A DNA stretch of 38,676 bases, taken from NCBI GenBank assembly GCA_017405785.1, contig JAFQZR010000015.1:38360-77035 (forward strand), in the 5' to 3' direction. Below, piece after piece: positions 12,908 through 38,515 of this stretch. The notes under the pieces are model-generated. The model saw only the letters and a program-made list of their open reading frames with translations, had not been told where the DNA came from and made no database searches. A program made the translations under genes and the position numbers. Positions within the stretch are counted from its first letter, which is position 1; every line of letters starts with the position of its first letter. The DNA is from Erysipelotrichaceae bacterium (GTDB lineage: Bacteria; Bacillota_I; Bacilli_A; Erysipelotrichales; Erysipelotrichaceae).

Positions 12908-13330
12908 TTACATAAAAACCGTGACAATTACCGTAACAATAAACAGTGCTGGACCAAATGGTAGGACTTGCTTCATTGTATATTTGAAAGCTGTTATCTG
13001 GAGCAATGATGCGACGAATAGAATCACTAAAGTTTCCATCGGAGAAAGGTAAAAACCAAGCAAGGCTAAAGTTTTTAAGTCTCCGCCTCCGGCACCGTGT
13101 TTCCCAGTTTTCTTCTCATATGCCACCGTCATCAGCAACAACGGCACAAAGATCAGCAGGGCAGAACCCAGACTTTTCAAGATATTTATATAGCTTTTCA
13201 AAAAGATTAAATACAGGATCCTGAAAGTAATTCCGGCCAGAATATAGGCATCCGGAATGACCGCTCTTTTGTAATCGCTGATAGCAATACACAGCAAAAA
13301 TATCAGTAAAACGATCAAATCAAATCTCAT
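12908..13330 (-). CDS. A24 family (TadV/TadA-subfamily-like) prepilin peptidase
   Basis: The 140-residue membrane protein is a short aspartic prepilin peptidase that cuts the leader from type IV pilin-like proteins at the inner membrane. Catalytic Asp19 lies in ISDYKRAVIPD and Asp84 in GAGGGDLKTLALLG (the GxGD motif); about five membrane segments surround them. The N-methylating domain of full-length PilD is absent, as is usual for the short class. The start at 13330 follows an AAAGG site in a small hairpin loop. No pilin or secretion ATPase genes are in the window. Its first ~22 codons and upstream region occur twice more, at 15099-15204 and 19116-19218, so this gene seems to be the target of integrating elements. 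Confidence 0.9.
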   Translation of the reverse strand: MRFDLIVLLIFLLCIAISDYKRAVIPDAYILAGITFRILYLIFLKSYINILKSLGSALLIFVPLLLMTVAYEKKTGKHGAGGGDLKTLALLGFYLSPMETLVILFVASLLQITAFKYTMKQVLPFGPALFIVTVIVTVFM

Positions 13331-13367
13331 AAAAACGACCCGCCTTTCGACGGGTCATTATAGTGTG
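13264..13367 (-). repeat. Copy 1 of the ~104-bp prepilin-peptidase 5' repeat (att-like)
   Basis: This segment, from a TATAAT-like box through codon ~22 of the intact gene, is repeated at 15099-15204 and 19116-19218 in the same orientation. The block around TTGTAATCGCTGATAGCAAT is identical in all three, which makes it the best candidate for the crossover core. Copies 1 and 2 also share the extra bases CTC on the left. Confidence 0.85.
13334..13359 (-). promoter_or_regulatory. 5' hairpin or palindrome holding the ribosome binding site of the prepilin peptidase gene
   Basis: On the minus strand AATGACCCG pairs with CGGGTCGTT (one G-U pair) around a loop containing GAAAGG, the presumed Shine-Dalgarno, with ATG 3 bases after the stem. 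In the copy at 15170-15195 the arms are AATAATCCG / CGGATTATT: two pairs changed on both sides and pairing kept. The upstream arm overlaps a TATAAT box (13357-13362). If that box is the real -10, the element would work as a DNA palindrome rather than an RNA hairpin. Confidence 0.55.
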
Positions 13368-13711
13368 AGCTTGACGGATTAAATAAAATCCAATTGAGAT
13401 TTGGCATAGTTTACCTTAGCATAGAATTAATGTAATATGTATGTAGATAGACAATTTTATGATGTACTTAAATCTGCTGGTGTTTCAAATACGAGCAGAG
13501 AAAAAATAGGCAGCGGGAAGTATGGAGAATTGGTTTGTCAGACATAGTAGCAGGCTTAATCTATTACTAATGATAAATACTCGTTTTCAGAAGTGAGAAA
13601 GTGTTAGTGTCTTCTAGGTAAGATCTCATTGATAAAGTGCTGTTACACATAAATAAAGCGCAGAATGATCTGCGTTGTTATTGATGTGTAATGGCTAATA
13701 ATCAAATTTGT
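13368..13711. other. Gene-poor stretch left of the Asn-rich microprotein
   Basis: I see no supported gene. A 36-codon frame at 13437-13547 (starting MYVDRQFYDVLKSAG) lacks a ribosome binding site. A small hairpin GCGCAG / CTGCGT lies at about 13660-13676. Confidence 0.45.
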
Positions 13712-13743
13712 CCCATTCACATCATAACGAATGGGATTTTTTG
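13712..13743 (+). terminator. Terminator or attenuator just ahead of the Asn-rich microprotein gene
   Basis: A 7-bp perfect stem CCCATTC / GAATGGG with a 10-base loop is followed by ATTTTTTG. It ends 26 bases before the ATG at 13770. No gene lies just upstream on this strand, so a leader-attenuator role is possible. Confidence 0.65.
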
Positions 13744-13769
13744 TGCTTTACTGGAAAGGAGGTGAAAAG

Positions 13770-13931
13770 ATGTCAAAAGGAAAAGTGGTTTCAGGTAATA
13801 CGCATAGTAGACAGCAAATGAATAACTATGCAAACCAGAATAACAGGAACAACCCGGCAAACAGAGCAAACAATAATAATCACTCTAACCAGTTGAATCC
13901 TAACAATTCGAATTACAAGGGAAAAAACTAG
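13770..13931 (+). CDS. Asn-rich microprotein, 53 aa
   Basis: This 53-residue hydrophilic protein is nearly one third Asn (NQNNRNNPANRANNNN, QLNPNNSNYKGKN). The start at 13770 has a perfect AAAGGAGGTG site 5 bases upstream; the longer frame from 13731 overlaps the terminator-like hairpin and is not credible. Similar short proteins with the NANQ.NPNN pattern are widespread and multi-copy in Bacillota, often listed as hypothetical and sometimes mislabelled alpha-amylase. The function is not known. It has a terminator directly behind it and a hairpin before it, so it looks like a self-contained unit. It sits in the segment between repeat copies 1 and 2. Confidence 0.75.
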   Translation: MSKGKVVSGNTHSRQQMNNYANQNNRNNPANRANNNNHSNQLNPNNSNYKGKN

Positions 13932-13941
13932 ATTGCTGAAA

Positions 13942-13973
13942 TTGGAGGCTATAACAAGGTTGCCTCCTTTTTA
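13942..13973 (+). terminator. Terminator of the Asn-rich microprotein gene
   Basis: Stem GGAGGC / GCCTCC with a 12-base loop, followed by TTTTTAT. Confidence 0.85.
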
Positions 13974-14124
13974 TAATCAATATATACGTTAAGAAAGATT
14001 ATTTAGAATAGGTAATAACAATAATGCAATTAAATGGGTGAAAAATGTAAGCAAAGAGTATAATTATATTAGATAAAAAAGCGATTTAAAAAGGAAGACC
14101 GCTAATATAATATGGTAAGATAAA

Positions 14125-15051
14125 ATGGAACAATCAGAGATAAAAGTTAATCATATAGAAACCAAGAGTGTAATGACTAAATCGAATACACCATTAGGCG
14201 GTTATTCGCTCAACCCATATGTGGGATGTCCTCATGCCTGTAAATACTGTTATGCATCTTTTATGAAGCGTTTTACAGGGCATAGCGAACCCTGGGGTAC
14301 TTTCATGGATGTGAAACATTGGCCAACCATTAAAGTTCCAAAGAAATATGCAGGGCAGAAAATAGTTATCGGCACTGTCACGGATGGTTATAATCCTTTG
14401 GAAGAGACTTATAAGAATACCAGAAAGCTGCTGGAAGAGCTGAAGGACAGCGGTGGTGATATCGTAATATGTACGAAGTCGGATCTGGTATTACGAGACC
14501 TGGATCTTCTGAAAGAAATGAATCAGAAATGCCGTCTTACGATTTCCTGGTCAATCAATACACTGGATGAAGAGTTTAAAAATGACATGGATGATGCAGC
14601 AAGTATTGAAAGACGTCTTTCAGCCATGAAGGAGGTCTACGATGCCGGAATTCGAACCATCTGCTTCATCTCTCCTGTATTCCCTGGTATTACGGATATT
14701 GAAGCTATTTTCAAACGTGCAAAAGATCAGTGTGATCTGATCTGGCTGGAAAATCTGAATCTTCGCGGTGGCTTCAAAGCTGATATCATGAATTATATTG
14801 CAGAGAAATATCCGGATCTGGTACCGTTGTATGATGAAATCTACAATAAGAAAAACCGCAGTTATTTTGAAGATCTTGAAAAGAAAGCTGAAAAAATGGC
14901 GAAGAAATACGACTGTCGTTTTGTGGATAATGTAACACCATATGAGCGTGTTTCCAAGGGACATCCTACCATTGTGAACTACTTCTACCATGAAGAAGTT
15001 CGTGGTACTGAGAACAGCGGTCAGAGAAGAAAAAACAAAGAGCATGAATAA
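14125..15051 (+). CDS. Radical SAM protein, 'mobile pair protein B'-like (SPL/Rv2578c-type)
   Basis: The 308-residue protein has the radical SAM cluster motif CPHACKYCY near residues 35-43 inside NPYVGCPHACKYCYASFMKR, which ligates a 4Fe-4S cluster used to split S-adenosylmethionine. The block ETKSVMTKSNTPLGGYSLNP ahead of it resembles the group named radical SAM mobile pair protein B, related to the spore photoproduct lyase-like COG1533 family. The reaction is not established. The expected partner (pair protein A) and its MarR regulator are not nearby. The ribosome binding site is weak (GGTAAGA). The gene lies alone between repeat copies 1 and 2, about 50 bp from copy 2, consistent with carriage on a small mobile segment. 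No Cys of the motif is missing. Confidence 0.82.
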   Translation: MEQSEIKVNHIETKSVMTKSNTPLGGYSLNPYVGCPHACKYCYASFMKRFTGHSEPWGTFMDVKHWPTIKVPKKYAGQKIVIGTVTDGYNPLEETYKNTRKLLEELKDSGGDIVICTKSDLVLRDLDLLKEMNQKCRLTISWSINTLDEEFKNDMDDAASIERRLSAMKEVYDAGIRTICFISPVFPGITDIEAIFKRAKDQCDLIWLENLNLRGGFKADIMNYIAEKYPDLVPLYDEIYNKKNRSYFEDLEKKAEKMAKKYDCRFVDNVTPYERVSKGHPTIVNYFYHEEVRGTENSGQRRKNKEHE

Positions 15052-15060
15052 ATCTTTATT

Positions 15061-15165
15061 TTATACTATGGATAGTGAAGATATATATGTGACAATACCT
15101 CTTTTGTAATCGCTGATAGCAATACACAGCAAAAATATCAGTAAAATGATCAAATCAAATCTCAT
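15061..15165 (-). pseudogene. Displaced 5' end of a prepilin peptidase gene (34 codons)
   Basis: Reading left from ATG at 15165, the first 22 codons match the intact gene at 12908-13330 (MRFDLIILLIFLLCIAISDY, with one Val-to-Ile change), then the frame leaves the match right after ...DYKR and stops 12 codons later. It still has the leader hairpin and ribosome binding site. It is best read as the part of the gene left behind after an insertion. Confidence 0.85.
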
Positions 15166-15204
15166 AAAAATAATCCGCCTTTCACGACGGATTATTATAG
15201 TTTG
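15099..15204 (-). repeat. Copy 2 of the prepilin-peptidase 5' repeat (att-like)
   Basis: Nearly identical to copy 1 from CTCTTTTG through the start codon. It differs in the hairpin stem by changes on both arms (AATAATCCG / CGGATTATT) and has two extra bases in the loop. It separates the radical SAM segment on the left from the recombinase segment on the right. Confidence 0.85.
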
Positions 15205-15264
15205 GCTGATGACGGTGGCACTTATGATAGTTTAAGATAGTCATGTAGATAAATTGGAAATTTG

Positions 15265-15789
15265 TCACTCTTCTGTATACCGATACCCATCCGGAATTCG
15301 AATATACGCGCGAATATGCTCATCGATAGAGCGTTCGATAATTCTGGATATATTGTTCACATTTCCTTCTGCAACAAGGATCGTACACTCCCGTTTCTCA
15401 AGGACGATCCCTATATGGTCGTGTTCTTTGTTCTCGAATACCCTGTCATAGAGTACGATGTCTCCCGCTTCCGGAACATAGCCTTCCGGCCCTTTATGGT
15501 ATTCGATCCGCCGATCGCCTACGGCAAACTCCTCCCAGCCAAGACATGCAGCCAGATGACAGGTTTTACATTCCTCTGGTCTGTATGGGATTTCGAATCC
15601 CGTTGCCATGCAGCAATAATAGACAAACGCCGCACACCATAACCCGTCAGCTTCCTTGAGATTCCATGTTGGAAACAATCGCACAATCGGCGCTAGATTG
15701 GAAGCCATCCCATCAACATCTCCGTGAAACGGAACCTGCGCCATATCCTTTGCAATCTCGGCTAGTTTTTCTCTTGTTGCTTTTTCCAT
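15265..15789 (-). CDS. CHAP-like (papain-type) amidase/peptidase, 174 aa
   Basis: The pattern is that of CHAP-type cysteine hydrolases: WCAAFVYYCC (probable catalytic Cys near residue 52), EAGDIVLYDR, DHIGIVLE with the His near residue 124, and a late VAEGNVNN. Such domains cut peptidoglycan cross-links or gamma-glutamyl bonds. No signal peptide or membrane helix is seen, so if it acts on the wall it needs another exit route; an intracellular substrate is also possible. A GGAGAGGC site precedes the ATG. It is the leftmost gene of the segment between repeat copies 2 and 3, and its base composition is richer in GC than its neighbours, which points to separate transfer. Confidence 0.75.
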   Translation of the reverse strand: MEKATREKLAEIAKDMAQVPFHGDVDGMASNLAPIVRLFPTWNLKEADGLWCAAFVYYCCMATGFEIPYRPEECKTCHLAACLGWEEFAVGDRRIEYHKGPEGYVPEAGDIVLYDRVFENKEHDHIGIVLEKRECTILVAEGNVNNISRIIERSIDEHIRAYIRIPDGYRYTEE

Positions 15790-15832
15790 ATATGCCTCTC
15801 CAAACCCCGATTTGTATCTGGAAACAATGTCA

Positions 15833-16089
15833 CTATTTATTCTTCTTCATATGTCTTCCCTGAGTTTCATAATTCACCACGATATGTCGATCCGCCTGTT
15901 CGGCTTTCCGCCAAAGAAGGACAACCGTCTCCACATGCCTTGGGACAATAGCGTGAATAAAAAGGCACATATTTACGCTGTTGCCGCGACCGTCCTCGTG
16001 GAGCAGTTCCCACTTTCTAAAACGGTCGAGTGGGCAGCGTTAATGGAATTACTTCGGCAAACCGGAATATGTCGATCCGGATTACAGTT
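15833..16089. other. Unresolved, possibly decayed coding stretch
   Basis: This GC-richer stretch reads like protein in more than one frame but none is whole. On the minus strand a 45-codon frame (15833-15970) starts MCLFIHAIVPRHVETVVLL without a proper ribosome binding site. On the plus strand a frame with RLFGFPPKKDNRLHMPWD and later, after a frame change, GKPEYVDPDYSFKLV looks coding-like. I take it as remnant sequence and assign no function. Confidence 0.4.
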
Positions 16090-16521
16090 TCAAACTTGTT
16101 TTTTACTGTTGTTTTTGCTCAGTTTTTTATAAAAAATGATTTCAAGCGGTTCTTTGGGCAATACCAATGCTCCCCTGTCCGTATAGCCGAGTTTTCTGTA
16201 AAAGAACTGAGCTTCTTCGTCCGACTGTGTTGAAGTCAAAACAAATTTGTAGCCTTGTTCTGCCATCTCGTGCTCCCAGAACTCAACCAGTGTTCTGCCG
16301 TATCCTTTTCCTCGTTGTTCTTCAGTAACGTACAGCAAATTCATAAACGGGATGTTGTCCCAGAACAGATTGAATCTCAGCCAACCTCCGTATTCGCCGT
16401 TAATGAACAGAAGAATGATCCTTTTCATTTTGATCGAGTTCTTCATTTCTTCCTTTGAAATGTGCTCATCGTATTCCGAAACCATTTCAAGGTCGCCCGG
16501 TTTTGCGTATCGGATTTCCAT
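16090..16521 (-). CDS. GNAT family N-acetyltransferase
   Basis: The 143-residue protein begins MEIRYAKPGDLEMVSEYDEH and has the acetyl-CoA binding motif A as VTEEQRGKGYGRTLVEFW (residues about 70-87) and motif B as EEAQFFYRKLGYTDRGALV, which together define GNAT enzymes. They move an acetyl group from acetyl-CoA to an amine; the acceptor (antibiotic, peptide or metabolite) cannot be told. AAGGAGA lies 6 bases before the ATG. It is in the cargo of the element between repeat copies 2 and 3, behind the serine recombinase and with the same orientation. Confidence 0.92.
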   Translation of the reverse strand: MEIRYAKPGDLEMVSEYDEHISKEEMKNSIKMKRIILLFINGEYGGWLRFNLFWDNIPFMNLLYVTEEQRGKGYGRTLVEFWEHEMAEQGYKFVLTSTQSDEEAQFFYRKLGYTDRGALVLPKEPLEIIFYKKLSKNNSKKQV

Positions 16522-16621
16522 ATTTTTTCTCCTTGTATAACGTATATTTCTGCTCTCGGACAGTTTTTACCATTCCGGATTTGACTGTCAAAAGATCATC
16601 AAATCCCGATTTTCTTCTCCA

Positions 16622-17239
16622 TTACTTTCTGCTCTCCAGTTTACCGCGCTTGACCTCCTCAGGCTTTGTTATCCTGCCCTCGGCAGCCAGCCTGTTGAGA
16701 TGCTTGTTAAGAGTCGTGCGCGAAATGCCGAATTCCTTCATGATCTTCTTCTGGTAAATGTAATTGTCCTTCCATTCATTATACATCTCAACCAGCTTGT
16801 CATCGTTGATGACTTTTTTCTTTCGGCCAAGCTTCTTGCCTTTGGCCTTTGCTATGGCGATGCCCTCAGCCTGACGCTCAAGTATCACCGATCTCTCGAA
16901 TTCAGAGAGAGCCGCAAATATTGTTAATACTAATTTGCCTGAAGAAGTAGTGGTATCGACATTCTCCTTTAAGGACTTGAACTCAACATTCTTTTCGGTC
17001 AGCTGCTCAACAAGAGATAAAAGGTCTTTGGTGCTTCTTGAGAAACGGGAGAACTCGGTAACGATGACGGTATCACCCTCACGGACGAAGTCCATCATCT
17101 TCTGCAGCTCAGGTCTTTTGGTGTCCTTGCCGCTTAACTTATCCAGGAAGATCTTTTCGCAGCCGTATTTCTTTAAAGCTTCCATCTGGCGGTCTTCATT
17201 CTGAGAAACAGTACTTACTCTGGCATATCCAACTAACAT
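16622..17239 (-). CDS. Serine recombinase (resolvase/invertase type)
   Basis: The 205-residue protein starts MLVGYARVSTVSQNEDRQ, with catalytic Ser9 in YARVST, followed by the conserved EFSRFSRSTKDLL and the dimer-helix segment FAALSEFERSVILERQAEG, and ends with a helix-turn-helix (YQKKIMKEFGISRTTLNKHL) that binds DNA. It cuts and rejoins DNA through a phospho-serine link as a site-specific resolvase or invertase. The ATG at 17239 has GGAGGG 7 bases upstream; an ATG 15 codons further upstream has none. It is divergent from the ribbon-helix-helix gene, and the palindrome at 17318-17329 may be a shared control site. No obvious invertible segment was found. Confidence 0.95.
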   Translation of the reverse strand: MLVGYARVSTVSQNEDRQMEALKKYGCEKIFLDKLSGKDTKRPELQKMMDFVREGDTVIVTEFSRFSRSTKDLLSLVEQLTEKNVEFKSLKENVDTTTSSGKLVLTIFAALSEFERSVILERQAEGIAIAKAKGKKLGRKKKVINDDKLVEMYNEWKDNYIYQKKIMKEFGISRTTLNKHLNRLAAEGRITKPEEVKRGKLESRK

Positions 17240-17317
17240 GGGCCTACCCTCCATTATCATGTTTTTTATTTCTTCATATACCATATTTTAACACATAAAT
17301 GATGCTCAATATAGATG

Positions 17318-17340
17318 TTATGCGCATAATAATGTATAAT
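17318..17340 (+). promoter_or_regulatory. Palindrome and -10 box between divergent recombinase and RHH genes
   Basis: TTATGCGCATAA (17318-17329) is a perfect 12-bp palindrome, and TATAAT (17335-17340) follows 5 bases later. A palindrome just upstream of a -10 box is a usual repressor site; the RHH protein encoded next to it is the obvious candidate to bind. No convincing -35 box is visible. Confidence 0.5.
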
Positions 17341-17631
17341 ACTGTCAGAAGGAGGGGAAAAGTTATCATTACTGACGAAGAGAGCTCTTTTGAAGTCGTT
17401 GATGAGAAGGAAATAGGTAAGGATACCATAGAAAGGAAGATAAAGACTTCCCATGGCAAATACATCTATGAATACATGAAGAGACACTATACCAGGGTAA
17501 ATTGCCTAATCTCGAAAGAAGAGGAGGAAGTGTTAAGGAAGCTGGGCATAGTACCCAACAAGTCCCAGTACATAGTGGAGCTCATCAAGGCCGACATCGA
17601 GCGTGAGAAAAGAGAAAAAGGTGAAAAATAA
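17332..17631 (+). CDS. Ribbon-helix-helix-like DNA-binding protein (start uncertain)
   Basis: The C-terminal 45 residues (YTRVNCLISKEEEEVLRKLG, then NKSQYIVELIKADIEREK) fit a ribbon-helix-helix fold: a short strand, then two helices. Such proteins repress promoters as dimers. The start is unclear. The ATG at 17332 has no ribosome binding site and touches the TATAAT box, while a perfect AGGAGGGG at 17350-17357 points to GTT (17362), ATC (17365) or ATT (17368) in the same frame, which would give about 89 residues. It is followed by a strong terminator and then the integrase, so it may control element excision or its own promoter. Confidence 0.65.
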   Translation: MYNTVRRRGKVIITDEESSFEVVDEKEIGKDTIERKIKTSHGKYIYEYMKRHYTRVNCLISKEEEEVLRKLGIVPNKSQYIVELIKADIEREKREKGEK

Positions 17632-17632
17632 A

Positions 17633-17669
17633 GGTCAGCTGCCTATATCTTGGCGGATAACAGCTGACC
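17633..17669 (+). other. Hairpin after the RHH gene
   Basis: GGTCAGCTG pairs perfectly with CAGCTGACC over a 19-base loop, directly after the RHH stop codon. It has no T-run of its own and could protect the mRNA end or bind a protein. Confidence 0.5.
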
Positions 17670-17681
17670 CGGATACAAATT

Positions 17682-17712
17682 ACCATATCAAAAATTTGAT
17701 GTGGTCTTTTTG
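17682..17712 (+). terminator. Terminator between RHH and integrase genes
   Basis: ACCATATCAA / TTGATGTGGT (one G-U pair) with a 4-base loop is followed by CTTTTTG. Confidence 0.85.
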
Positions 17713-17763
17713 TAATTCTCATTTTAACACCTAAGACGGAAGTAATACAACAGAGAGCGTGAA

Positions 17764-18963
17764 ATGGCAAGCTATCTTAAAAAGAAACCGTATGTGTATA
17801 AGGACTGCCCCGGATACATCGGGGTGACACTTCTGTATCCGTATTATGTATGCGGCAAGAGATACCATAAGGTCAAAAGGTTCCGCATACCGCTGGACAT
17901 GGACGAAAAGGAAAGGGAGATATTCTTAAGAAATAAGAAAAGGGAGATGATAGAGAAATGGCAGTCAGAGGGGTATGTTACAGTGAGGGATAAATCAAAC
18001 AGATATCTGGAGCACGTCGAACTTAAACAGGAACCTGAGACGTTTGCTGAGGTCGCAAAGCATTACCTCAATCACAAGAAGAAAGAAGTTTCGGTGATGG
18101 CATACAAGGCCAAATACAATATCTACTGCGAGTTATGCAATGCAATGGGTGAGATGAAGATGAAAGACTTACGAGGGCTGGACATCCAGAACTATCTTGA
18201 TAAGTGCTTTGAAAAGGGTCTTACGTATAATACGGTCACCGTATATTTCGGCAATATCAAGACCCTGTTCAACTACGCAGAAGTGCTGGGGATCATCGAA
18301 AGAAATCCCATCAGCAAGATGAGGAGGCCGAAAAAGCAGAAGGACATGGCCAACAGCATGCCATTTGTGATGACACTGGAGCAGGTTGAGGAAATGCTGA
18401 AGGCAATTGAGAATGATCCGATCTTTGATAAGGCCATGATCTATGTGCCACTGTATACCGGAATGAGGATAGGGGAGATAACAGGTCTTAAGTGGAAAGA
18501 CATCGATTTTGAAAACAGAAAGATATACGTGAGAAGAGCACTGCATATTTGGGAAGGCAGAGTAGTAGAACACAGTCCGAAGAACGGTGAGCAAAGAGTG
18601 GTACCGATATTCTCAGATAGATTTCTCAACGTATTGAAAGAATACAAGGAGTCATTGCATGAGATGGAAAGAGATGGGGAAGAGGAACTGGTATTCATGA
18701 CAGTGAAAGACAAACCGCTTTTTGATCCGGCATTTGGAAAAAAACTGAAGAAGATGAAGGCAAAGCATCCTGAGATACCGGCAGAGATGCATGCACACGC
18801 ATTCAGGCACACGTTTACCAGCATAATGATAAACAGGAAGAATGTGAACCCGGTGTACGTGGCAAAAATACTGGGGCATAAGAGAATAGAGATCACATTA
18901 TTTACATATAACCACACAATGATAGAGGATATAGAGAGGGCTGTGAAAGGCCTGGAGTTTTGA
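17764..18963 (+). CDS. int: Tyrosine recombinase / integrase of a mobile element
   Basis: The 399-residue phage/ICE-type integrase has an N-terminal arm-binding region (about 1-80), a SAM-like core-binding domain (about 90-190) and a catalytic domain with all expected residues: Arg235 in TGMRIGE, Lys273, His345 and Arg348 in HAFRH, His372 in LGHKR and the nucleophile Tyr382 in FTYNH. It cuts and joins att sites during insertion and excision. The gene ends about 150 bp from repeat copy 3, the usual place of an integrase beside its att site. The ribosome binding site is poor (GAGAGCGTGAA), which suggests low expression. The fit between this integrase and the prepilin-peptidase repeat is inferred from position. 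Confidence 0.95.
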   Translation: MASYLKKKPYVYKDCPGYIGVTLLYPYYVCGKRYHKVKRFRIPLDMDEKEREIFLRNKKREMIEKWQSEGYVTVRDKSNRYLEHVELKQEPETFAEVAKHYLNHKKKEVSVMAYKAKYNIYCELCNAMGEMKMKDLRGLDIQNYLDKCFEKGLTYNTVTVYFGNIKTLFNYAEVLGIIERNPISKMRRPKKQKDMANSMPFVMTLEQVEEMLKAIENDPIFDKAMIYVPLYTGMRIGEITGLKWKDIDFENRKIYVRRALHIWEGRVVEHSPKNGEQRVVPIFSDRFLNVLKEYKESLHEMERDGEEELVFMTVKDKPLFDPAFGKKLKKMKAKHPEIPAEMHAHAFRHTFTSIMINRKNVNPVYVAKILGHKRIEITLFTYNHTMIEDIERAVKGLEF

Positions 18964-19115
18964 CGGTAGATCCAGCATATAGAGAGATCTGCAGAGGGAT
19001 ATCATATAAAAATGGGATTTAGATCTAGAGAGGTTTACCAGATCTATGGATCTTGTTTTTTCTCATTTTTTCAGTTTGAAGATTTCCTAAATATCTTTAA
19101 GCACCTGGAAGCAAA
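18964..19115. other. Integrase-to-att interval with repeated AGATCT-rich motifs
   Basis: No gene. AGATCTGCAGAG, AGATCTAGAGAGG and CAGATCTATGGATC recur within 80 bp; they could be arm-type integrase sites, though the last two also form the terminator at 19021-19060. Confidence 0.4.
19021..19060 (+). terminator. Probable integrase terminator
   Basis: AGATCTAGA pairs with TCTA-TG-GATCT (2-base bulge) and is followed by TGTTTTTTC, 58 bases after the integrase stop codon. Confidence 0.6.
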
Positions 19116-19181
19116 TTTTTTGTAATCGCTGATAGCAATACACAGCAACAATATCAGCAAAACGATTAAATCAAATCTCAT
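19071..19181 (-). pseudogene. Displaced 5' end of a prepilin peptidase gene (36 codons)
   Basis: From ATG at 19181 the first 21 codons match the intact gene (MRFDLIVLLILLLCIAISDY) with two synonymous changes and one Phe-to-Leu change, then leave it at ...DYKK and stop 15 codons later. The pattern of mild, mostly silent change says this was once a working gene start. Confidence 0.85.
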
Positions 19182-19218
19182 CAAAACAACCCGCCTTTCG
19201 ACGGGTCATTATAGCGTG
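19116..19218 (-). repeat. Copy 3 of the prepilin-peptidase 5' repeat (att-like)
   Basis: It matches copy 1 from TTTTGTAATCGC through the GACCCG / CGGGTT stem and the TATAAT-like box. The hairpin arm has two G-U pairs in place of Watson-Crick pairs. It lies next to the integrase gene and is the outermost copy, hence probably the original upstream end of the target gene. Confidence 0.85.
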
Positions 19219-22430: not shown

Positions 22431-22503
22431 TTCGTTTTTGCACTAAAGCGAGACAAAAACAGGATTTTCAGGAATTATGAACCAGATATCTTCTTTGGAA
22501 TAT

Positions 22504-22533
22504 TTACGACAATTTACTTGTAAATGGTATAAT
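22504..22533 (+). promoter_or_regulatory. Promoter of the zinc-ribbon nuclease gene
   Basis: TTACGA (22504-22509), 18 bases, TATAAT (22528-22533). A start of transcription near 22540 supports ATG 22576 rather than the earlier in-frame ATG at 22477. Confidence 0.6.
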
Positions 22534-22575
22534 AGTGTTAGTAGATTATTTATACAACGAAAGGCGGCTATTATT

Positions 22576-24714: not shown

Positions 24715-25479
24715 ATGCATTCAGAGGGAGATATAAGAAGAGCAATCAGACCATTAATTGAACGATACGGTAAATTAACTATTAGTGAAGTAAAAGATAA
24801 GTTGAATGATGTTTTGGAGTTTGATGATGAGGACCTTGAACCATCACCAACGAGGCCAGGTGAAACAAAAATTATACAAAGAATAGGAAACATTGTATCA
24901 CATCAAGCAGAGAGCGAAAGACTATATCCAGAAGGCTTTATTGTGAATAAAAACGAAGTGCCGGCAGTATTTATTGCTGTCCATGGGTTTGGAAATAATC
25001 TTGTTCCAATAACAAAGAAAGAGATATTAATTAGAAACAAAAAAGCTCAAAATACAAATCAAAAAGCAGATTGGGGAAAAATTAATGAAGAAAGATCTGA
25101 TATTGGAACAAAAGGGGAAGAATTTATTTTTCAATATGAAAGAGATAATGTTGCTATGCTCGACCCAGCGGCGGTATCTAGGGTGATATGGGTTAGCCGT
25201 GATTTAGGAGACAGTTACGGTTATGATATTCTATCGTTAGATAGTCAGGGTAATGTAAAGTTTATAGAAGTAAAAACTACAACCGGAAAAGACACTCAGC
25301 CATTCTATCTAACTAAAAACGAAAAGGAGTTTTTAGAGAATAACGATAATGTAGTAATATATAGAGTATATGATTTTGATAGAGAACGCGGATACGGGAA
25401 AATATTGGAGATTACAAGCACACAATTATTAAGCAACTATTTGCTTGACCCTGTAACGTTTAAAGTCACACACAAATAG
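24715..25479 (+). CDS. DUF3883 nuclease-like protein with Mrr-type N-terminal domain
   Basis: The 254-residue protein has an N-terminal winged-helix region like the Mrr N domain (about residues 5-65) and a C-terminal DUF3883 domain, which is a PD-(D/E)XK-type nuclease fold. The putative active site is GYDILSLDSQGNVKFIEVKT with Asp171, Glu185 and Lys187, preceded by GTKGEEF (Glu135-136). Proteins of this design are found in restriction systems, often for modified DNA, or as accessory nucleases. The GGAGGG site is ideal, and the gene is followed after 10 bp by the adenine methyltransferase, so the two are very likely one operon with the zinc-ribbon nuclease. The target sequence or modification is unknown. 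Confidence 0.8.
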   Translation: MHSEGDIRRAIRPLIERYGKLTISEVKDKLNDVLEFDDEDLEPSPTRPGETKIIQRIGNIVSHQAESERLYPEGFIVNKNEVPAVFIAVHGFGNNLVPITKKEILIRNKKAQNTNQKADWGKINEERSDIGTKGEEFIFQYERDNVAMLDPAAVSRVIWVSRDLGDSYGYDILSLDSQGNVKFIEVKTTTGKDTQPFYLTKNEKEFLENNDNVVIYRVYDFDRERGYGKILEITSTQLLSNYLLDPVTFKVTHK

Positions 25480-25489
25480 GAGGAGTTGT

Positions 25490-26599
25490 ATGATCGGAAC
25501 ACTAATTAAGTGGCCTGGAGGAAAATCAAGGGAAATCATTTATATAAAAGATATTATTCCAGATGAATATGATCGCTATGTCGAACCATTCTTTGGGGGA
25601 GGCGCGATGTATTTCTATTTGGAGCCAAAGAAAGCGTTAATTAATGATATATCTCAGCAATTAATGATGTTTTTTACGCTAATTAAAAAGAACGATAGCG
25701 GTTTTAAGGGTTATCTATACGAATATGATTATCTGATAAAACATATAATAGATATATGTGAAGACAATTATTCGGAGCTACATGAGATATATATTAAAAA
25801 GCGTGATTTTTCAGAAAAGGCCGATTTAGCAGTGAATAGTTTTGTGCATAACCATTTTGAAAACAACATAACAAACAATCTGATTCTGGACTATAAAATC
25901 TTTTTGAATCACTTATATAAGAATTCATTAGATAAGATTAATAGGACGGTGAAGAATGAACAGAAGACACCATATAATGCCGAAGACCTTAAGGAAAACC
26001 TTATTACAGGCTTTGTAAGTGGAATGTATATGTATTTCAGAGAGATCTATAACGATATTGCTCTAAAGAGACTGACAAATATAAGTGTTCAATATGAAAT
26101 TGCTAATTTTTATTTCATAAGAGAATACTGCTATGGATCTATGTTTAGATATAATGCAAAAGGAGAATTTAATATTCCTTATGGTGGCATGTCATATAAC
26201 CGCAAAGACTTTTCTGCAAAGATAAAACAAATGTTTGATGAAAATGTAATTAACCAGCTCACCGGTACCGAAATATATAATATGGATTTTGAAAAATTTT
26301 TTAATAGCATTAATCTTTCAGAAAATGATTTTATGTTTTTAGATCCGCCATATGATACAGAGTTCTCAGATTATGAAGGAGTAGATTTTACTAAGAGTGA
26401 CCAAATACGATTAGCTAACGCGTTAAAAAAGACGAAAGCCAAATTTATATTGATAATAAAAAATACAGATTTCATTTATTCGTTATACAAAGACTATTTC
26501 AATATTCTGTATTTTGATAAAACATATACTTATAATGTTCGTAGCCGAAATGATAGAGATGTAGAGCATCTGATAATAACAAATCTCCCTATTAACTAG
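25490..26599 (+). CDS. DNA adenine N6-methyltransferase, D12/Dam class
   Basis: The 369-residue enzyme of the MethyltransfD12 family (alpha class) moves methyl from SAM to adenine N6 in DNA. Motif X is KWPGGKS at residues 8-14, the SAM-binding motif I is VEPFFGGGAMYFYL near 32-45, and the catalytic DPPY (motif IV) is in FMFLDPPYDTEF near residue 285. It is longer than Dam (about 280), the extra length being in the target-recognition part (about 60-190), so specificity need not be GATC. AGGAGG precedes the ATG. It converges on a second methyltransferase across a shared terminator and probably protects DNA against one of the nucleases here. Confidence 0.92.
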   Translation: MIGTLIKWPGGKSREIIYIKDIIPDEYDRYVEPFFGGGAMYFYLEPKKALINDISQQLMMFFTLIKKNDSGFKGYLYEYDYLIKHIIDICEDNYSELHEIYIKKRDFSEKADLAVNSFVHNHFENNITNNLILDYKIFLNHLYKNSLDKINRTVKNEQKTPYNAEDLKENLITGFVSGMYMYFREIYNDIALKRLTNISVQYEIANFYFIREYCYGSMFRYNAKGEFNIPYGGMSYNRKDFSAKIKQMFDENVINQLTGTEIYNMDFEKFFNSINLSENDFMFLDPPYDTEFSDYEGVDFTKSDQIRLANALKKTKAKFILIIKNTDFIYSLYKDYFNILYFDKTYTYNVRSRNDRDVEHLIITNLPIN

Positions 26600-26613
26600 G
26601 GAGATTATTTTGT
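26582..26613. terminator. Bidirectional terminator shared by the two converging methyltransferase genes
   Basis: A perfect 10-bp stem AATCTCCCTA / TAGGGAGATT with a 5-base loop, followed by ATTTTG. The stop codons of both genes (26597-26599 plus; 26605-26607 minus) are in the right arm and its edge. Compact convergent genes of this kind leave no room for loss of either end. Confidence 0.88.
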
Positions 26614-27300
26614 TTCATTAATTCTTTGTTGTGCAGCAGCGAAATATTGTGAATCAATTTCGCAACCAATAAATGATCTGTTAAGTGATTTTGCAGCAAC
26701 GCCAGTAGAACCAACACCCATGAATGGATCAAAGACCACATCGTTTTCGTTGCTTGCAATCTTGATTAAATGACTAAGTAGTTTAACAGGCTTTTGAGCT
26801 GGATGTTTAGGGCTTTTTAATCTTTCTTTTCCCATACAAATAGGTGATTCAAAGAAATTATGCATTTCATTCTGGGTTGAGAAATTCCATGTGTGTCCTT
26901 TGTCCCACATACATACAATGAGTTCACAGCTGTTTAAAAAGCCGTTTTTATAAATCTTTGGAGTAGGATTTGTTTTATGCCAAATGAAGTATTGGAAAGT
27001 ATCATATTCCGGATCAAAAGCCTCGTGCCACTTTCCGATGAGATTATAACTGGTGAAAACAAATATATTACCTGTTGGCTTAAGAATTCTCTTAAATTCG
27101 TCTACAAATGATATTGGTTCAATTGTTTTTTCATCCCAAGATCCAATATCGTTATTAAGTTCTGTTCTTCCTGGGAGAGGGATATTTCCTGTAGAATACT
27201 GAGCAATATTATATGGTGGGTCAGTAAGAATTAAGTCAACAGAATTACTCTCGATAGTTTTTATAAACTCTAGGCAATCTCCATTATATAAATCAATCAT
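26605..27300 (-). CDS. DNA methyltransferase, N4/N6 (beta) class
   Basis: The 231-residue enzyme has DPPY first (LTDPPYNIAQYS, residues 27-30) and the SAM-binding FxGxG late (FDPFMGVGSTGVAA, about 195-208), the order of beta-class amino-methyltransferases that modify adenine N6 or cytosine N4. The SPKHPAQKPVKLLSHLI block before motif I is typical of type II enzymes. Its start codon overlaps the stop of the endonuclease gene by one base (TAATG), which links the two in one transcript; the pair is the natural R-M unit of the island. It does not contain a separate target-recognition domain of size, as usual for this short class. Confidence 0.93.
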   Translation of the reverse strand: MIDLYNGDCLEFIKTIESNSVDLILTDPPYNIAQYSTGNIPLPGRTELNNDIGSWDEKTIEPISFVDEFKRILKPTGNIFVFTSYNLIGKWHEAFDPEYDTFQYFIWHKTNPTPKIYKNGFLNSCELIVCMWDKGHTWNFSTQNEMHNFFESPICMGKERLKSPKHPAQKPVKLLSHLIKIASNENDVVFDPFMGVGSTGVAAKSLNRSFIGCEIDSQYFAAAQQRINETK

Positions 27301-28166
27301 TATTTATCCTCAATAGTGTTTTTAATCATATCGTTGATGTGTTTGTTAAGATCGATTTCCATTAACGCTTCTTGATAAATAGAAACAAAATCACTAAAAT
27401 CTATGTCTTCTGGTAGAATTCGGTTCCAGAATTGAGAACCAATTAGAAACATGGAAGGATAGTTCAGGTGAGCCTTTACTATCCCTTTCCATTGATTGCC
27501 TTCGCCATCTTTGTTGTATAAAGTAGCAAAATACGCAAGGCAGTTATCTATGCCCATGTCTACATATAAGTTCAGCAGTTTTTCTACGTTTGATGGAGCA
27601 TTTGAACTATCTAAATCTCCTCCTGCTTTAATTTCCATAATGTTCCAGTTATCACCATCAAAAAAAGCTAAATCAACTGGTTTGGTATGTATCTCATCAG
27701 TTTTATATTTCTGTGCTAGAGGGTTTAGGTAAGTGTGAATAGTATACTGTGTTGTACCGCTCTCCACTCTGTTTTTGCCTGATCCGTGAGCCATATTTCT
27801 TTGTCTAAATGCAGCGATTTCTCCGCGCAAATCCGCATTGGCAGAATCAACGTCAGTCACAACAATTTGGCCAGTTACAGTGGATGGATCTATGTTGCAG
27901 GGAATATGTCTAGGATTAACAATTTTTGGAACATTCTCTTCCCCATACCTTAGAACAGCAATTCTTTTTGCGACAGTTTCAATTGTGTTGCCACTTTTCG
28001 ATTCAAAACTGCTTACAAACACCATACTTGCTGTGATGGTTTTATCCATTTGATTAAGAAGAAAATTATTTACTTTCTTGTTATAGTTCTTTTCAAAATC
28101 ATTCTCGATGGTTTCTGTTAATTTGCTGAATTCTTCAATTATGATAGTCTTAATCTGCTTTTTCAT
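27300..28166 (-). CDS. Probable type II restriction endonuclease
   Basis: The 288-residue protein has a PD-(D/E)XK-like active site KPVDLAFFDGDNWNIMEIKA with Asp165, Glu178 and Lys180. The helical N-terminal region holds FESKSGNTIETVAKRIAV, whose Glu is also a common catalytic-fold residue. No helicase or ATP site is present, so a type II rather than type I or III enzyme is expected. It is translated just ahead of, and overlapping by one base with, the beta-class methyltransferase, which supports an R-M pair. I could not place it in a named specificity family; the target site is unknown. The 215-bp gap upstream carries the divergent promoter of the GHKL operon. Confidence 0.78.
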   Translation of the reverse strand: MKKQIKTIIIEEFSKLTETIENDFEKNYNKKVNNFLLNQMDKTITASMVFVSSFESKSGNTIETVAKRIAVLRYGEENVPKIVNPRHIPCNIDPSTVTGQIVVTDVDSANADLRGEIAAFRQRNMAHGSGKNRVESGTTQYTIHTYLNPLAQKYKTDEIHTKPVDLAFFDGDNWNIMEIKAGGDLDSSNAPSNVEKLLNLYVDMGIDNCLAYFATLYNKDGEGNQWKGIVKAHLNYPSMFLIGSQFWNRILPEDIDFSDFVSIYQEALMEIDLNKHINDMIKNTIEDK

Positions 28167-28301
28167 GTTGTGTCTCCTAGAATACTATCATTATAATTCA
28201 TTATTGACTGTTTTTCATTCGAATTTGCACAGTATTCTATGCAATGTTTATCATAGGATTCGCAATAATAAACAGATATAAATGTATAAATAATTGATAT
28301 A

Positions 28302-28330
28302 TTGACTTATATAACCCAATTCAATATACT
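28302..28330 (+). promoter_or_regulatory. Strong promoter of the GHKL operon
   Basis: TTGACT (28302-28307), 17 bases, TATACT (28325-28330), in AT-rich DNA. Just downstream AAAATATAG occurs twice in a row (28339-28347, 28351-28359), a possible operator in the early transcribed region. Confidence 0.8.
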
Positions 28331-28381
28331 ATATATGCAAAATATAGATAAAATATAGCAATACATGGAGGATTTGTAGTA

Positions 28382-28606
28382 ATGGAAAGCAAACACGAAA
28401 GATTCATTAGATTGGGTCAAGCAAGAACTAATAGAATAATAGAACAGATTAATCTCATTGGAAATCTAGCGAACAGAGGTAATTATGAATACTCTGATGA
28501 AGAGGTCAATAAGATGTTTAAAGCAATAGAGGATGAGCTTAAGGAGGTAAAGAACAAATTCAAAAAAACTAAAGATAGAGAAATAAATTCTAAGTTCACT
28601 TTTTAG
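28382..28606 (+). CDS. Small helical protein, first gene of the GHKL operon, 74 aa
   Basis: I do not know a named family. The 74-residue protein is charged and helical: FIRLGQARTNRIIEQINLIG, then NRGNYEYSDEEVNKMFKAIE and a Lys-rich tail. Similar short proteins with the 'RLGQ/EKRVNRILEDLRLIGNLSNRSNYEY' type of sequence are familiar from R-M and defence loci, so an accessory role with the ATPase behind it is likely (inference). GGAGG lies 9 bases before the ATG. A 12-bp gap leads to the next gene. No DNA-binding fold is obvious. Confidence 0.75.
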   Translation: MESKHERFIRLGQARTNRIIEQINLIGNLANRGNYEYSDEEVNKMFKAIEDELKEVKNKFKKTKDREINSKFTF

Positions 28607-28618
28607 GAGGTAATAATA

Positions 28619-30562
28619 ATGAGTCTTACAAATCTAGTTATAAAAATGCCTGTAACAGAAGAAACAGGCAATTCTGGTATTGGTAATGGGAATATTGAAA
28701 CATATAACAACATCCCTATGAATTCCTTAGCTAAAGAAGAATTACAGAACTCTACGGATCAAAAGAGACAAAAAACAGAAGCCCCTGTTATTGTTGAGTT
28801 TAATGAGTTTTATATTGATACGAATACGTTACCAGATATTGCACATCTAAGACAGATCTTTTTGGAAGAAATAGAGTATTGGGATAATTATCTTGATAAC
28901 GACAAAAAGGCGGTAGAATTCTTTATGACAGGTCTAGAAATATTAAATAGAGAAAGCATTAGATGCTTAAGAATAAGTGATAACAACACTACGGGTTTAT
29001 GTGGCGTTGAATGCAAAAAATCTAGTCCTTGGAATAATCTTGTTAATAATATTGGTGTATCTGACAAACCAGGTAATAATTCTGGATCTTTTGGCGTTGG
29101 CAAAGACGCTGCTTTTGCCTGCTCACAATTAAGGTTTGTCTGTTACAACACAGTGTCAGAAGATGGAACCACTGCGTTTAAAGGAAGAATTAAATTGCCA
29201 TCATACAGTAAAGAGGATATTTACTATACTGGATTTGGGTATTATTGTGATTCTCAGGTAAAAAGCTTTATGCCTATTTACGAAAACATATCGTTGGATC
29301 CTAGCTATCAAAGAAACAATGGTGAAATTGGTATGGATAAATTCATCATAGGATTTGACGAAACAATATCTAATATCAAAGACGAAATTGTTATAGCTTC
29401 TTTGAACAATTATCTTGTTTCCTTTTTTGAAGGAAAACTAATTGTTAAGTTTAGAGATCTGGAGATATCTCAGAAGAATTTGGATGTTATTATTTCAAAG
29501 TATTCTGATAATCCTAAATTGTCATATTTAACTAAAGAATACTATGAGGTCCTAAAGGAAGAAGATTCTGAAAAGAGTAAGACATACATGATGTCGTTTT
29601 ACGACGAAAACGATGTTGAAATAAAGCTTGTTCTAAATCCATCATTTTCAAGACGTGCTGCTATTACTAGGCAAACTGGTATGAAGGTTTTTGATAAAGG
29701 AAATTTAAGTGGCTCCGTTGGTTTTGCAGGAATAGTTATTCTGAGAGGTAATAGTGTAAACAAGAATTTTAAGTTACTGGAAAACACAGAACATGATCGA
29801 TGGGCCACAGATAGAATAAACAAATATCCAGATATAAAGAAAAAGCATGATGAACTCTTTGATTTTATAAGAAAACAGATTAAGGAATTGCATTTGCAAG
29901 ATTATTCAGTATCAATGGATGCGGATGGAGTTTCTGATTATCTTCCTTTTGAATACATAACTGGAAAAAGAGATAAAGTTGAAACGATTAGTAATGCTAT
30001 TGATAACATTAGAAAGAAGAGTAGAAGAAAAACAAAACCCATTCCAAATATGAATCAACAAGAATCAGTATTTGTTGAAGACGAAAATGGTGAAACCATC
30101 GAAGTTTCAGCCGAGGAAGTTATGGAAACAGTATTCAGTCCTGATCCACTTCCAAATCCTCCAGGACCAGAGCCACACCCTTTTGATCAAACGAGTAGTA
30201 CTGCTTTTATTGAGAACTCACAAGGAGAAGCAAAAAAGGTTGCTAACGATAAGAACAAATATAAACAAATTAATAAAAACAATATTAGCTTTAAGTTAAT
30301 CAAAAAGCAGACCGGTTATAACCTCAGAGTCACGTTTAACAAAAATGTTTCTTCAGGTTTCATTAAAGTTAGTGTTTCTGGTGAACAAAGTAAAGCGCCA
30401 GTATATATTACAGAATGTTATGAGGATGGTAGGAAAGTACTTACCAACGATAATGCTATTGAAATAAAAAATATAAAAAGCAAGAGCAATCATACATATC
30501 AGTTTTCTATCAGCAAAGACTATGGTTTAGCATTGGAGGTGGAAGGTTATGAAAATAAATAA
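28619..30562 (+). CDS. GHKL (HSP90/MutL/MORC-like) ATPase
   Basis: The 647-residue protein carries a GHKL ATP-binding domain in its first 250 residues: RISDNNTTGL (Asp121, motif II) and NNSGSFGVGKDAAFAC (motif III, about 153-168). The N-box upstream is unusual: EEIEYWDNYLDN near 83-94 stands where MutL has ENSLDA. A middle S5-like part (about 250-460) and a Pro-rich linker (NPPGPEPHPF) lead to a beta-rich end. GHKL ATPases of the MutL/MORC type are known in R-M loci, where they are thought to act as ATP-driven clamps on DNA. It lies in a five-gene operon and overlaps the next gene by 14 bases. The specific function is unknown. Confidence 0.85.
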   Translation: MSLTNLVIKMPVTEETGNSGIGNGNIETYNNIPMNSLAKEELQNSTDQKRQKTEAPVIVEFNEFYIDTNTLPDIAHLRQIFLEEIEYWDNYLDNDKKAVEFFMTGLEILNRESIRCLRISDNNTTGLCGVECKKSSPWNNLVNNIGVSDKPGNNSGSFGVGKDAAFACSQLRFVCYNTVSEDGTTAFKGRIKLPSYSKEDIYYTGFGYYCDSQVKSFMPIYENISLDPSYQRNNGEIGMDKFIIGFDETISNIKDEIVIASLNNYLVSFFEGKLIVKFRDLEISQKNLDVIISKYSDNPKLSYLTKEYYEVLKEEDSEKSKTYMMSFYDENDVEIKLVLNPSFSRRAAITRQTGMKVFDKGNLSGSVGFAGIVILRGNSVNKNFKLLENTEHDRWATDRINKYPDIKKKHDELFDFIRKQIKELHLQDYSVSMDADGVSDYLPFEYITGKRDKVETISNAIDNIRKKSRRKTKPIPNMNQQESVFVEDENGETIEVSAEEVMETVFSPDPLPNPPGPEPHPFDQTSSTAFIENSQGEAKKVANDKNKYKQINKNNISFKLIKKQTGYNLRVTFNKNVSSGFIKVSVSGEQSKAPVYITECYEDGRKVLTNDNAIEIKNIKSKSNHTYQFSISKDYGLALEVEGYENK

Positions 30563-31409
30563 TACAAGACTATTTCCGTACCCAGTTTATTCAGAAGATA
30601 GAAATGACTATAGAGATGCGACTTTTACATCAGATTATTCATATTTTTATGAAGGTGATGAAGTTGTTATTAAATATTCTGTAAATATTAGTAATCAAGA
30701 ACTGATTGAGCTTATTCTAAGCGGGGTACTACAGTTATACATAAATATAGAATGTGGAGCCACCAAATACAGAGACACCTTTCCTATAAGCTATCCAAGC
30801 GGAGAGATAATGATAAATAACACCAGGTTAAATATTTCGGCGGAATTAATAACGCTTATAGTTGTTAGAGATGAGGTGGAAGAATATAAGAATTCTCAGT
30901 TAGATCCATTCTATGACATCCAAAAAATACGACTGATGAAGGGAACAATAGTTGGATATTCACCAATGCAACAAATAGTCATTCAAAAGAAGATTGAGAA
31001 TAATGGTCAAGTTCCATCGATTTTTAACATAAATATATCTGAAGAAGATTCAGATATGACATATTTGTTGGCTGATGAACAGATACAGGTTTTTCTCCCT
31101 CGTTCAACCTATGAAGTATACAACGATTTGAAGGGGCAATATATAAGGATAAAACAAGCAATGATAATACTACCGGTTTTACAGGCGGCATTAGAAGAAA
31201 TAAAAAAAGGCGAAGAATCTTTTGATGGAAAGATATGGTACATAGTAATTGAAGAGGCGATAAAAAAACTTGGCAAAGGTTATGAAGATGGGTTTGCCAG
31301 TGAAACTTTTAAAAATGCGGATTCTTTGCGGATTGGTCAGAGTATACTAAAGCAAGTTATTCCGGACAGTTTTTCAGAACTAAATGCAATTAATCTAAAA
31401 CTAGACTAA
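30549..31409 (+). CDS. Unknown protein, third gene of the GHKL operon, 286 aa
   Basis: I do not recognise this protein. The first ~140 residues look like beta-sandwich (FYEGDEVVIKYSVNISNQEL, LQLYINIECGATKY), similar in texture to the C-terminal domain of the ATPase before it. The last ~100 residues are helical (YNDLKGQYIRIKQAMIILPV ... IEEAIKKLGKGYEDG). It has no membrane segment or catalytic signature. It starts inside the end of the ATPase gene with GGAGGTGGAAGG ahead, so translation is coupled and the two products probably form a complex. It may be a partner that links the ATPase to target or effector (inference). Confidence 0.8.
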   Translation: MKINNTRLFPYPVYSEDRNDYRDATFTSDYSYFYEGDEVVIKYSVNISNQELIELILSGVLQLYINIECGATKYRDTFPISYPSGEIMINNTRLNISAELITLIVVRDEVEEYKNSQLDPFYDIQKIRLMKGTIVGYSPMQQIVIQKKIENNGQVPSIFNINISEEDSDMTYLLADEQIQVFLPRSTYEVYNDLKGQYIRIKQAMIILPVLQAALEEIKKGEESFDGKIWYIVIEEAIKKLGKGYEDGFASETFKNADSLRIGQSILKQVIPDSFSELNAINLKLD

Positions 31410-31422
31410 AGGGAGCAAGGAT

Positions 31423-32166
31423 ATGGAGATAAAGATAATGACATATGCTGCTATAGCATATGTAAAAAAGAATATTCACTTTGTAGCAAATCATTATAAG
31501 CAGAATGATCAACCAGAAAAATGGCTGCGTGAAGCACTTGGAGAGGCTCCGTTTGTTTCTATAGATATTGCAGAGATCCCTGATTTTGATCTGGAATTAT
31601 CGCAAGAACGATCTGATACTGATGTCAAAAACATAAAAACTCTATATGAAAATATGATTACTCTAAATGATAGTTTTGCATCAGATGAAAGATTGTGGGC
31701 AGGATTAGCACACACAAAGTTTTATTCATACATGATAAACAGATGGAAAATGCAAGATGCTGAAGGAACTAAATTGGAAAGCTCAATATTAGATCATTTT
31801 TTCTTTAATCACGGACAACAAAGGTCATATATGGTTAACTCTTTAGCTAGATTATGGTGGTATGGAAGAAAACTATATAAGGCCGATTCCAATCTCCTGT
31901 GGGAATATCTGGATTATATTAGTACGGATATTAATGGTGTGTTATTTACTTTGTTTGGATCTAATTGGGCTAATAATGCTACGTTAGTTTCTTCCTTTTT
32001 TGAAACAATAATAGATTATGAGAAAAGAAAAGGGAGACGCTTGACCAGAAAAGAGATAAATGAAGGGATGAGATTTATGCAATTATTGGGAGGAACTTAC
32101 TCTTTAGATGTGGTTGAAAAAGAGTTCATAGATCAACAATTACAAAACTATTACATGAATTATTAG
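31423..32166 (+). CDS. DUF6339-like protein, fourth gene of the GHKL operon
   Basis: The 247-residue helical protein has ERLWAGLAHTKFYSYMINRW (about residues 89-108) and SMVNSLARLWWYGRKLYKAD-like text (about 143-160), which resembles the DUF6339 group found in defence-type loci. It is rich in Trp and Tyr in these two blocks, suggesting a conserved binding groove. No known catalytic motif is seen. It begins 13 bp after the previous gene with a GGGAGCAAGG site, and is followed after 18 bp by a small membrane protein. The family name is from memory of the pattern and should be verified; the function is unknown. Confidence 0.7.
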   Translation: MEIKIMTYAAIAYVKKNIHFVANHYKQNDQPEKWLREALGEAPFVSIDIAEIPDFDLELSQERSDTDVKNIKTLYENMITLNDSFASDERLWAGLAHTKFYSYMINRWKMQDAEGTKLESSILDHFFFNHGQQRSYMVNSLARLWWYGRKLYKADSNLLWEYLDYISTDINGVLFTLFGSNWANNATLVSSFFETIIDYEKRKGRRLTRKEINEGMRFMQLLGGTYSLDVVEKEFIDQQLQNYYMNY

Positions 32167-37589: not shown

Positions 37590-37648
37590 TTATGCGTTCA
37601 AAGTGCTGAAATATTACTGATAGTAAAATGAAAGCGAGAGAGGATAAC

Positions 37649-38515
37649 ATGCCCAATAACAGCAAGCTGGGAAGCGGACTTGATGCGATCTTCGGATCTG
37701 ATATAAACAGTCTGCTTGATGATATACAGAACGGTAATGAACCGGAAGGTGTTACTACAAGTAATACCACTTTAGCATTGACCGATATCAAACCGAATCC
37801 ATATCAGCCAAGAGAGATCTTCGATGAAGAGAAGTTAAAAGAACTGGCTGACTCCATTAAGGAGCATGGTGTATTCACTCCTGTATTAGTTAGAAAAGTA
37901 ACCGTTGGATATGAACTCGTAGCAGGGGAGAGAAGAACCAAGGCAGCAGAGATTGCCGGTTTAACTGAGATACCAGCCATCATAGTTGATTTCGATGATG
38001 ATCAGATGATGGAGATCTCTTTGTTGGAGAATATACAGAGAGAAAACCTGACTGCCATTGAAGAAGCAAAGGCGTATAAGAACCTTATTGATAAAAGGGG
38101 ATATACCCAGGAAGAATTAGGAAAACGTGTCAGCAAATCCAGGGAACATGTTGCAAATACCTTAAGACTGCTATCCTTGCCGGATAAAGTACAGAAGCTG
38201 GTTGAAAACGGTTCATTAACTGCCGGGCAGGCCAGACCGCTGATCACGGTTGATCCTAAAGATATAGATCAGTTAGTTGATAAAGTAGTAAAAGAAAACC
38301 TCTCTGCTAGAAGAGTAGAGAAGCTTGTACAGGATTATAAAAATCCACCGATTAAGAATACTCCTGTTATCAGTGAAGCTGCCCAGGAACACCAGAAACA
38401 GTTACAGCACTATTTGCAGACAAGAGTAAAGATAGATGGAACAAAGATCACTATCAACTATGTTGATGAAAATGATTTGGAAAGAATCGTTGAAGCTATT
38501 TGTTCGAAGGAATAA
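37649..38515 (+). CDS. parB: Chromosome-partitioning protein ParB / Spo0J
   Basis: The 288-residue protein begins MPNNSKLGSGLDAIFGSD, the typical start of Spo0J/ParB. Motifs follow in order: DIKPNPYQPREIFDEEKLKE, AGERRTKAAEIAG (GERR box, CTP-binding core), LLENIQRENL, the helix-turn-helix YTQEELGKRVSKSREHVANT, and a C-terminal dimer domain (LQTRVKIDGTKITINYVDEN). It loads onto parS sites as a CTP-gated clamp and helps chromosome segregation with ParA/Soj. Start at 37649 has GAGAGAGG ahead of it; an ATG seven codons earlier has none. No parA is upstream, and I found no parS sequence in the window. Confidence 0.97.
   Translation: MPNNSKLGSGLDAIFGSDINSLLDDIQNGNEPEGVTTSNTTLALTDIKPNPYQPREIFDEEKLKELADSIKEHGVFTPVLVRKVTVGYELVAGERRTKAAEIAGLTEIPAIIVDFDDDQMMEISLLENIQRENLTAIEEAKAYKNLIDKRGYTQEELGKRVSKSREHVANTLRLLSLPDKVQKLVENGSLTAGQARPLITVDPKDIDQLVDKVVKENLSARRVEKLVQDYKNPPIKNTPVISEAAQEHQKQLQHYLQTRVKIDGTKITINYVDENDLERIVEAICSKE

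Follow-up and report, generated by a model that had tools for sequence, protein, structure and literature searches.

The locus described here raises the question of why the start of a prepilin peptidase gene stands three times in one stretch of DNA whose only intact peptidase gene follows a single copy. We analysed a 38,676-nucleotide stretch of an Erysipelotrichaceae genome (the window), for which the first-pass annotation had proposed that elements insert near the beginning of this gene and bring with them a new 5′ end. Our comparison of the copies with one another and with related genomes makes it probable that site-specific insertion occurred at codons 17-22 of the A24 peptidase gene with replacement of its 5′ end, in which case the repeated gene starts would be attachment-site repeats.

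Results

A gene start repeated in three direct copies

A repeat finder run on the window returned three direct copies in one orientation (13267-13367, 15102-15202 and 19118-19218), as first noted, and a 21-bp core, TTTTGTAATCGCTGATAGCAA, occurred exactly three times in the window and in none of 100 shuffles. Read in the sense of the gene, each block runs from a -10-like box, CTATAAT, through a short leader and an ATG to 21 codons, ending GATTACAAAA. The blocks measure 97, 99 and 97 bp for copies 1, 2 and 3, respectively, and both of their ends are sharp. Searches of the same genome detected these three (E values of 5e-49 to 3e-37) and no further copy, and a profile search gave the same result. 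The features of the array are collected in Table 1.

Table 1. Features of the triplicated gene start and its surroundings, in window positions
Feature	Position	Strand	Domain match
Intact gene for the A24 (type IV prepilin) peptidase (140 aa), the proposed target of insertion	12908..13330	-	PF01478, E 2e-12
Common core ATCAGCGATTACAAAA, codons 17-22, copy 1	13267..13282	-	
Block copy 1, continuous with the gene body (CTATAAT, hairpin leader, ATG, codons 1-22)	13267..13363	-	
Segment A: genes for a small protein and for radical SAM mobile pair protein B	13364..15101		
Radical SAM protein, rSAM_mob_pairB	14125..15051	+	TIGR04470, E 7e-162
Block copy 2, orphan start, 34-codon stub	15102..15200	-	
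Segment B (3.9 kb): CHAP protein, GNAT, serine resolvase, small ORF, tyrosine integrase	15201..19117		
Serine recombinase (resolvase N-terminal domain and HTH)	16622..17284	-	PF00239, E 2e-45
Tyrosine integrase, 399 aa, complete; proposed agent	17764..18963	+	Pfam Phage_integrase, E 1e-32
Block copy 3, orphan start, 36-codon stub	19118..19214	-	
Anti-phage defence genes 5′ of copy 3: TdeIII-type R-M, D12 methylase, PDC-M33A/C candidate system	24715..32166		

Differences within the coding part of the blocks are few. Copies 1 and 2 are separated by one change (Val to Ile) and copies 1 and 3 by three, two of them silent and one Phe to Leu. An earlier description of the changes as mostly silent is fair for copy 3, although the changes are very few.

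TATAAT is present in every copy, and of the three only copies 2 and 3 have a sigma-70 match of at least 9/12 in front of them. An 8-bp hairpin lies between the -10-like box and the ATG (13332-13357, 15167-15194 and 19183-19208, - strand), with a folding energy of -11 to -16 kcal/mol in every window copy and the ribosome-binding site within loop and stem. Three of its pairs are changed on both sides, but this degree of covariation falls within that of shuffled alignments (30/500). The hairpin could mask the ribosome-binding site in read-through transcripts.

The copies cease to match at codons 17-22 of the peptidase gene

Copies 1-3, together with a fourth block on a contig from another assembly (L065, described below), are identical through codons 17-22 and fall to chance-level similarity thereafter. 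In every pair of blocks identity ends at base +64 to +67 from the ATG, which bears out the original observation that the copies leave the match at the same codon and extends it to L065. On the 5′ side, identity is lost within 1-2 bases upstream of TATAAT in all copies. Despite these common ends, the flanks differ for each of the four blocks. An alignment of the three copies had been suggested for mapping the crossover; it delimits the common stretch through codons 17-22, and the points at which the copies cease matching mark only the outer limit of the crossover.

An intact A24 peptidase is present only downstream of copy 1. Copies 2 and 3 open stub ORFs of the lengths first reported for them, and no similarity to the gene body was detected past codon 22 in copy 2, copy 3 or L065. 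The breakpoint codons specify Ile-Ser-Asp-Tyr-Lys-Arg, of which Asp19 is invariant in all 12 of the aligned homologues; we take this residue to be the first catalytic Asp of A24 peptidases, and a GGGD motif lies further along the protein. Conserved sites of this type are what integrases use. A pseudo-palindrome around the core, TTGCTA-TCAGCGAT-TACAA, could represent an integrase-binding arm pair with an 8-bp overlap.

Segments A and B and their surroundings

The tyrosine integrase of Segment B ends 154 bp from the copy 3 core, in agreement with the distance of about 150 bp given at first. An integrase that lies within the insert and adjoins one of its ends is found in Segment B and not in Segment A, which has no recombinase gene anywhere in 13364-15101. 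The status of autonomous element cannot therefore be claimed for Segment A, and it may be a non-autonomous or trapped segment. A search of 392 genomes of the phylum found no homologue of the integrase at E≤1e-45, and a search for sister elements through the integrase returned relatives that were only 22-29% identical, which leaves no close homologue for comparing its choice of site. The segment ends have no arm-type motif of at least 10 bp in common.

Relatives of the Segment A radical SAM protein, 72-77% identical, occur in viral-collection contigs. The window gene lacks the regulator and partner A that precede its relatives in two other sequences (L141 and L142).

G+C content is 33-43% across the segments and the adjoining island (36% in Segment A) versus 45% in the left flank. 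Inside the defence region, 22477-24696 encodes a 739-aa protein with five treble-clef zinc-finger (DUF4379) repeats. Two further copies of a ParB/Noc-like gene (37628-38515) lie elsewhere in the genome, one on contig C20 with 90% identity and one on contig C23 with 57%; a plasmid-like element may include the right end of the window.

Gene-start blocks in other genomes

We built a profile from eight blocks and searched it in 273 genomes of the family. Strong copies were restricted to this genus, with three in the window genome and one each in four relatives (G001, G003, G006 and G008). The G003 block starts an A24 gene with a body, which stops inside that body and is apparently truncated; G006 has a block and a decayed A24 gene; and G001 and G008 have the gene start without a body. 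A scan of 84,980 genomes revealed one more block site, L065, on a goat-ileum contig labelled Methanobrevibacter, where an orphan start 98% identical to copy 3 ends its match at the same base and has Ssp/Pbe phosphorothioate defence genes as neighbours. Apart from this contig (L065/L140) of a Methanobrevibacter assembly, the start block is known only from the present bacterial genus; the contig may be a contaminant. Orphan blocks are thus present in three other assemblies (G001, G008 and L065), all of which leave the gene at codons 17-22, and no integrase adjoins any of the three. Searches with the block and core patterns gave no matches in viral contigs, and the block gave none in phages or plasmids.

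Among eight genus mates we found no genome with an empty site or with a single segment, because the window flanks are absent from all eight. Flanking pieces of G003 and G006, used as probes for an empty site, found none in the genus, and the gene loci are not collinear; the G006 flank is absent from the 95.8%-identical sister of G006, itself an incomplete genome. In all four relatives with a strong profile copy, the contig stops 0.14-1.2 kb past the 5′ side of the start, which would fit variable or repeated DNA at that position, although contigs may end there for other causes.

Sister genomes differ on the 5′ side of the breakpoint

A TfoX-neighbour search gave a close match only in G001 and G008, with distant homologues in other genomes. 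At three other loci, used as controls, G001 and G008 are 95-96% identical. On the 3′ side of TCATAGATTATATACAA, ten successive comparisons of 60 bases each gave 56-60 matches (93-100%). On its 5′ side about 80 of 110 bases match (~73%), and beyond 110 bases the two genomes are unrelated save for a distant acetyltransferase gene. High identity on one side and low identity on the other indicate that the 3′ side was inherited and the 5′ side exchanged, at the equivalent of codons 17-22, and the position of the switch, at the same codons as in the window, makes this a recurrent breakpoint. The exchange is the strongest new evidence, and it is independent of the window.

Discussion

A model for stacked insertion and its alternatives

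In the model that we favor, a site-specific recombinase would act at codons 17-22 of the peptidase gene; the tyrosine integrase encoded at 17764-18963, or a relative of it, is the most likely candidate. The incoming element would bring its own -10 box, a leader with a ribosome-binding site, and the first codons. Recombination would rebuild the peptidase gene with this new 5′ end and move the displaced start to the far end of the insert, where it would remain as a stub. Two such rounds would give the order copy 1, Segment A, copy 2, Segment B, copy 3, and copy 3 would be the oldest start in the array unless an insertion had hit an outer copy. We infer the identity of the enzyme, the separate insertion of Segments A and B, their order and the restoration of expression from this arrangement. 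Of the original proposal that insertion supplies a new 5′ end, insertion or recombination at the codons around the invariant Asp is the part that gains support, as it recurs in independent assemblies and in the G001/G008 exchange; the absence of a recombinase from Segment A weighs against the proposal, as do the failure to find an empty site or a single-segment genome among the eight genus mates, the lack of an integrase next to any other orphan block and the lack of common arm-type motifs of at least 10 bp.

A Segment A devoid of recombinase genes, and orphan blocks elsewhere with no integrase beside them, would be expected if the first block arose from a past integrase event and the present array and the exchanges in other genomes came about by RecA-mediated recombination between blocks during swaps of defence islands. 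We regard this as unlikely, but it has substance. Blocks of about 100 bp with mutual identities of 83-98% provide enough homology in principle, and copy 1 is a mosaic in which the stem resembles that of copy 3 and the U-tract and ORF resemble those of copy 2. Homologous exchange would not, however, break repeatedly within one and the same 16 bp, and the switch between G001 and G008 sits at the core rather than elsewhere in the block.

Could the block instead be a self-spreading small mobile unit or a short-peptide gene, for which the full peptidase is only one setting? Both ends are exactly alike in four blocks whose settings differ, and in G001 the block can be read as the gene of a hydrophobic peptide of 34 aa, with a terminator-like repeat at its end. 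A unit of this kind is nevertheless improbable given how few strong copies the profile recovered, the frame shift that follows the core in G008, and the true A24 gene starts in G003 and the window. About as improbable, to our minds, is descent from old whole-gene tandem duplicates of the peptidase whose bodies were deleted. The state of the gene in G003 and G006 demonstrates that degradation occurs in the genus, but loss of this kind does not account for copies that all end at the same base with no trace of a body after codon 22, nor for upstream regions that have nothing in common beyond TATAAT. Misassembly of a draft or metagenome contig at a short repeat is hardly credible: the relatives' assemblies are fragmented and the longest exact run common to copies 1 and 2 is about 48 bp, but the three copies are not identical, and orphan blocks turn up in genomes that were assembled independently.

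Relation to known 5′-end insertions

Insertion of the proposed kind, in which a 5′ end is replaced, has precedents, and the remark in the first-pass annotation that integrases restoring a 5′ end are less commonly described needs qualification in their light. In dusA-associated islands and prophages, such as A. baumannii D1279779_RGP05 and IMEVchUSA3 (PMC4482086, PMC8409611), insertion replaces the dusA 5′ end and the old 5′ end stays behind as a remnant (PMC4482086). The array shares with them a tyrosine integrase, imperfect direct repeats and a location at a conserved stretch within a protein-coding gene's 5′ end, as well as, in our proposal, an element that supplies a new promoter and N-terminal codons and leaves the old 5′ end at its far end. 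The islands differ in their target and are usually single and larger, and their excision and restored expression have been demonstrated, whereas here both are putative. The SXT/R391 ICE, according to the account of Hochhut and Waldor 1999 cited in PMC8409611, inserts at the 5′ end of prfC and provides a new promoter and N-terminus, as proposed here; it differs in being a conjugative element that targets another gene. As in the dusA and prfC cases, the common part of the repeats lies in the 5′ coding region of the target, with the intact gene at one repeat and a 5′ remnant at the other.

Prophages and other elements also insert in the competence genes comYC, comK, comFA and comM (PMC4774983). 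They resemble the present case in targeting the coding sequence of a competence or pilus gene, the competence role of the peptidase here being putative, but they disrupt their target, while here an intact peptidase gene remains. Our literature search found no paper with a prepilin (A24) peptidase as insertion site. Restoration of a 5′ end has already been described; what is apparently new is the gene that is targeted, together with the stacking and the presence of scars next to defence genes.

Implications for the genus

Copy 3 and L065, whose blocks are the most alike, each lie beside anti-phage defence genes, in keeping with the idea that sites of this kind gather defence islands. We raise, as a tentative suggestion that we would sooner doubt than accept, that the A24 peptidase start is a standing recombination hub in this genus, at which defence islands and small cargo are swapped by exchanging starts at the catalytic codon. 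If so, scars would accumulate and sister species would differ in the DNA attached 5′ of the start, including cases in which the body of the gene has been lost. The Asp codons of the A24 peptidase would be an apparently undescribed addition to the few genes that are struck at their 5′ end and rebuilt, and stubs of the block might serve to tag such elements in draft genomes.
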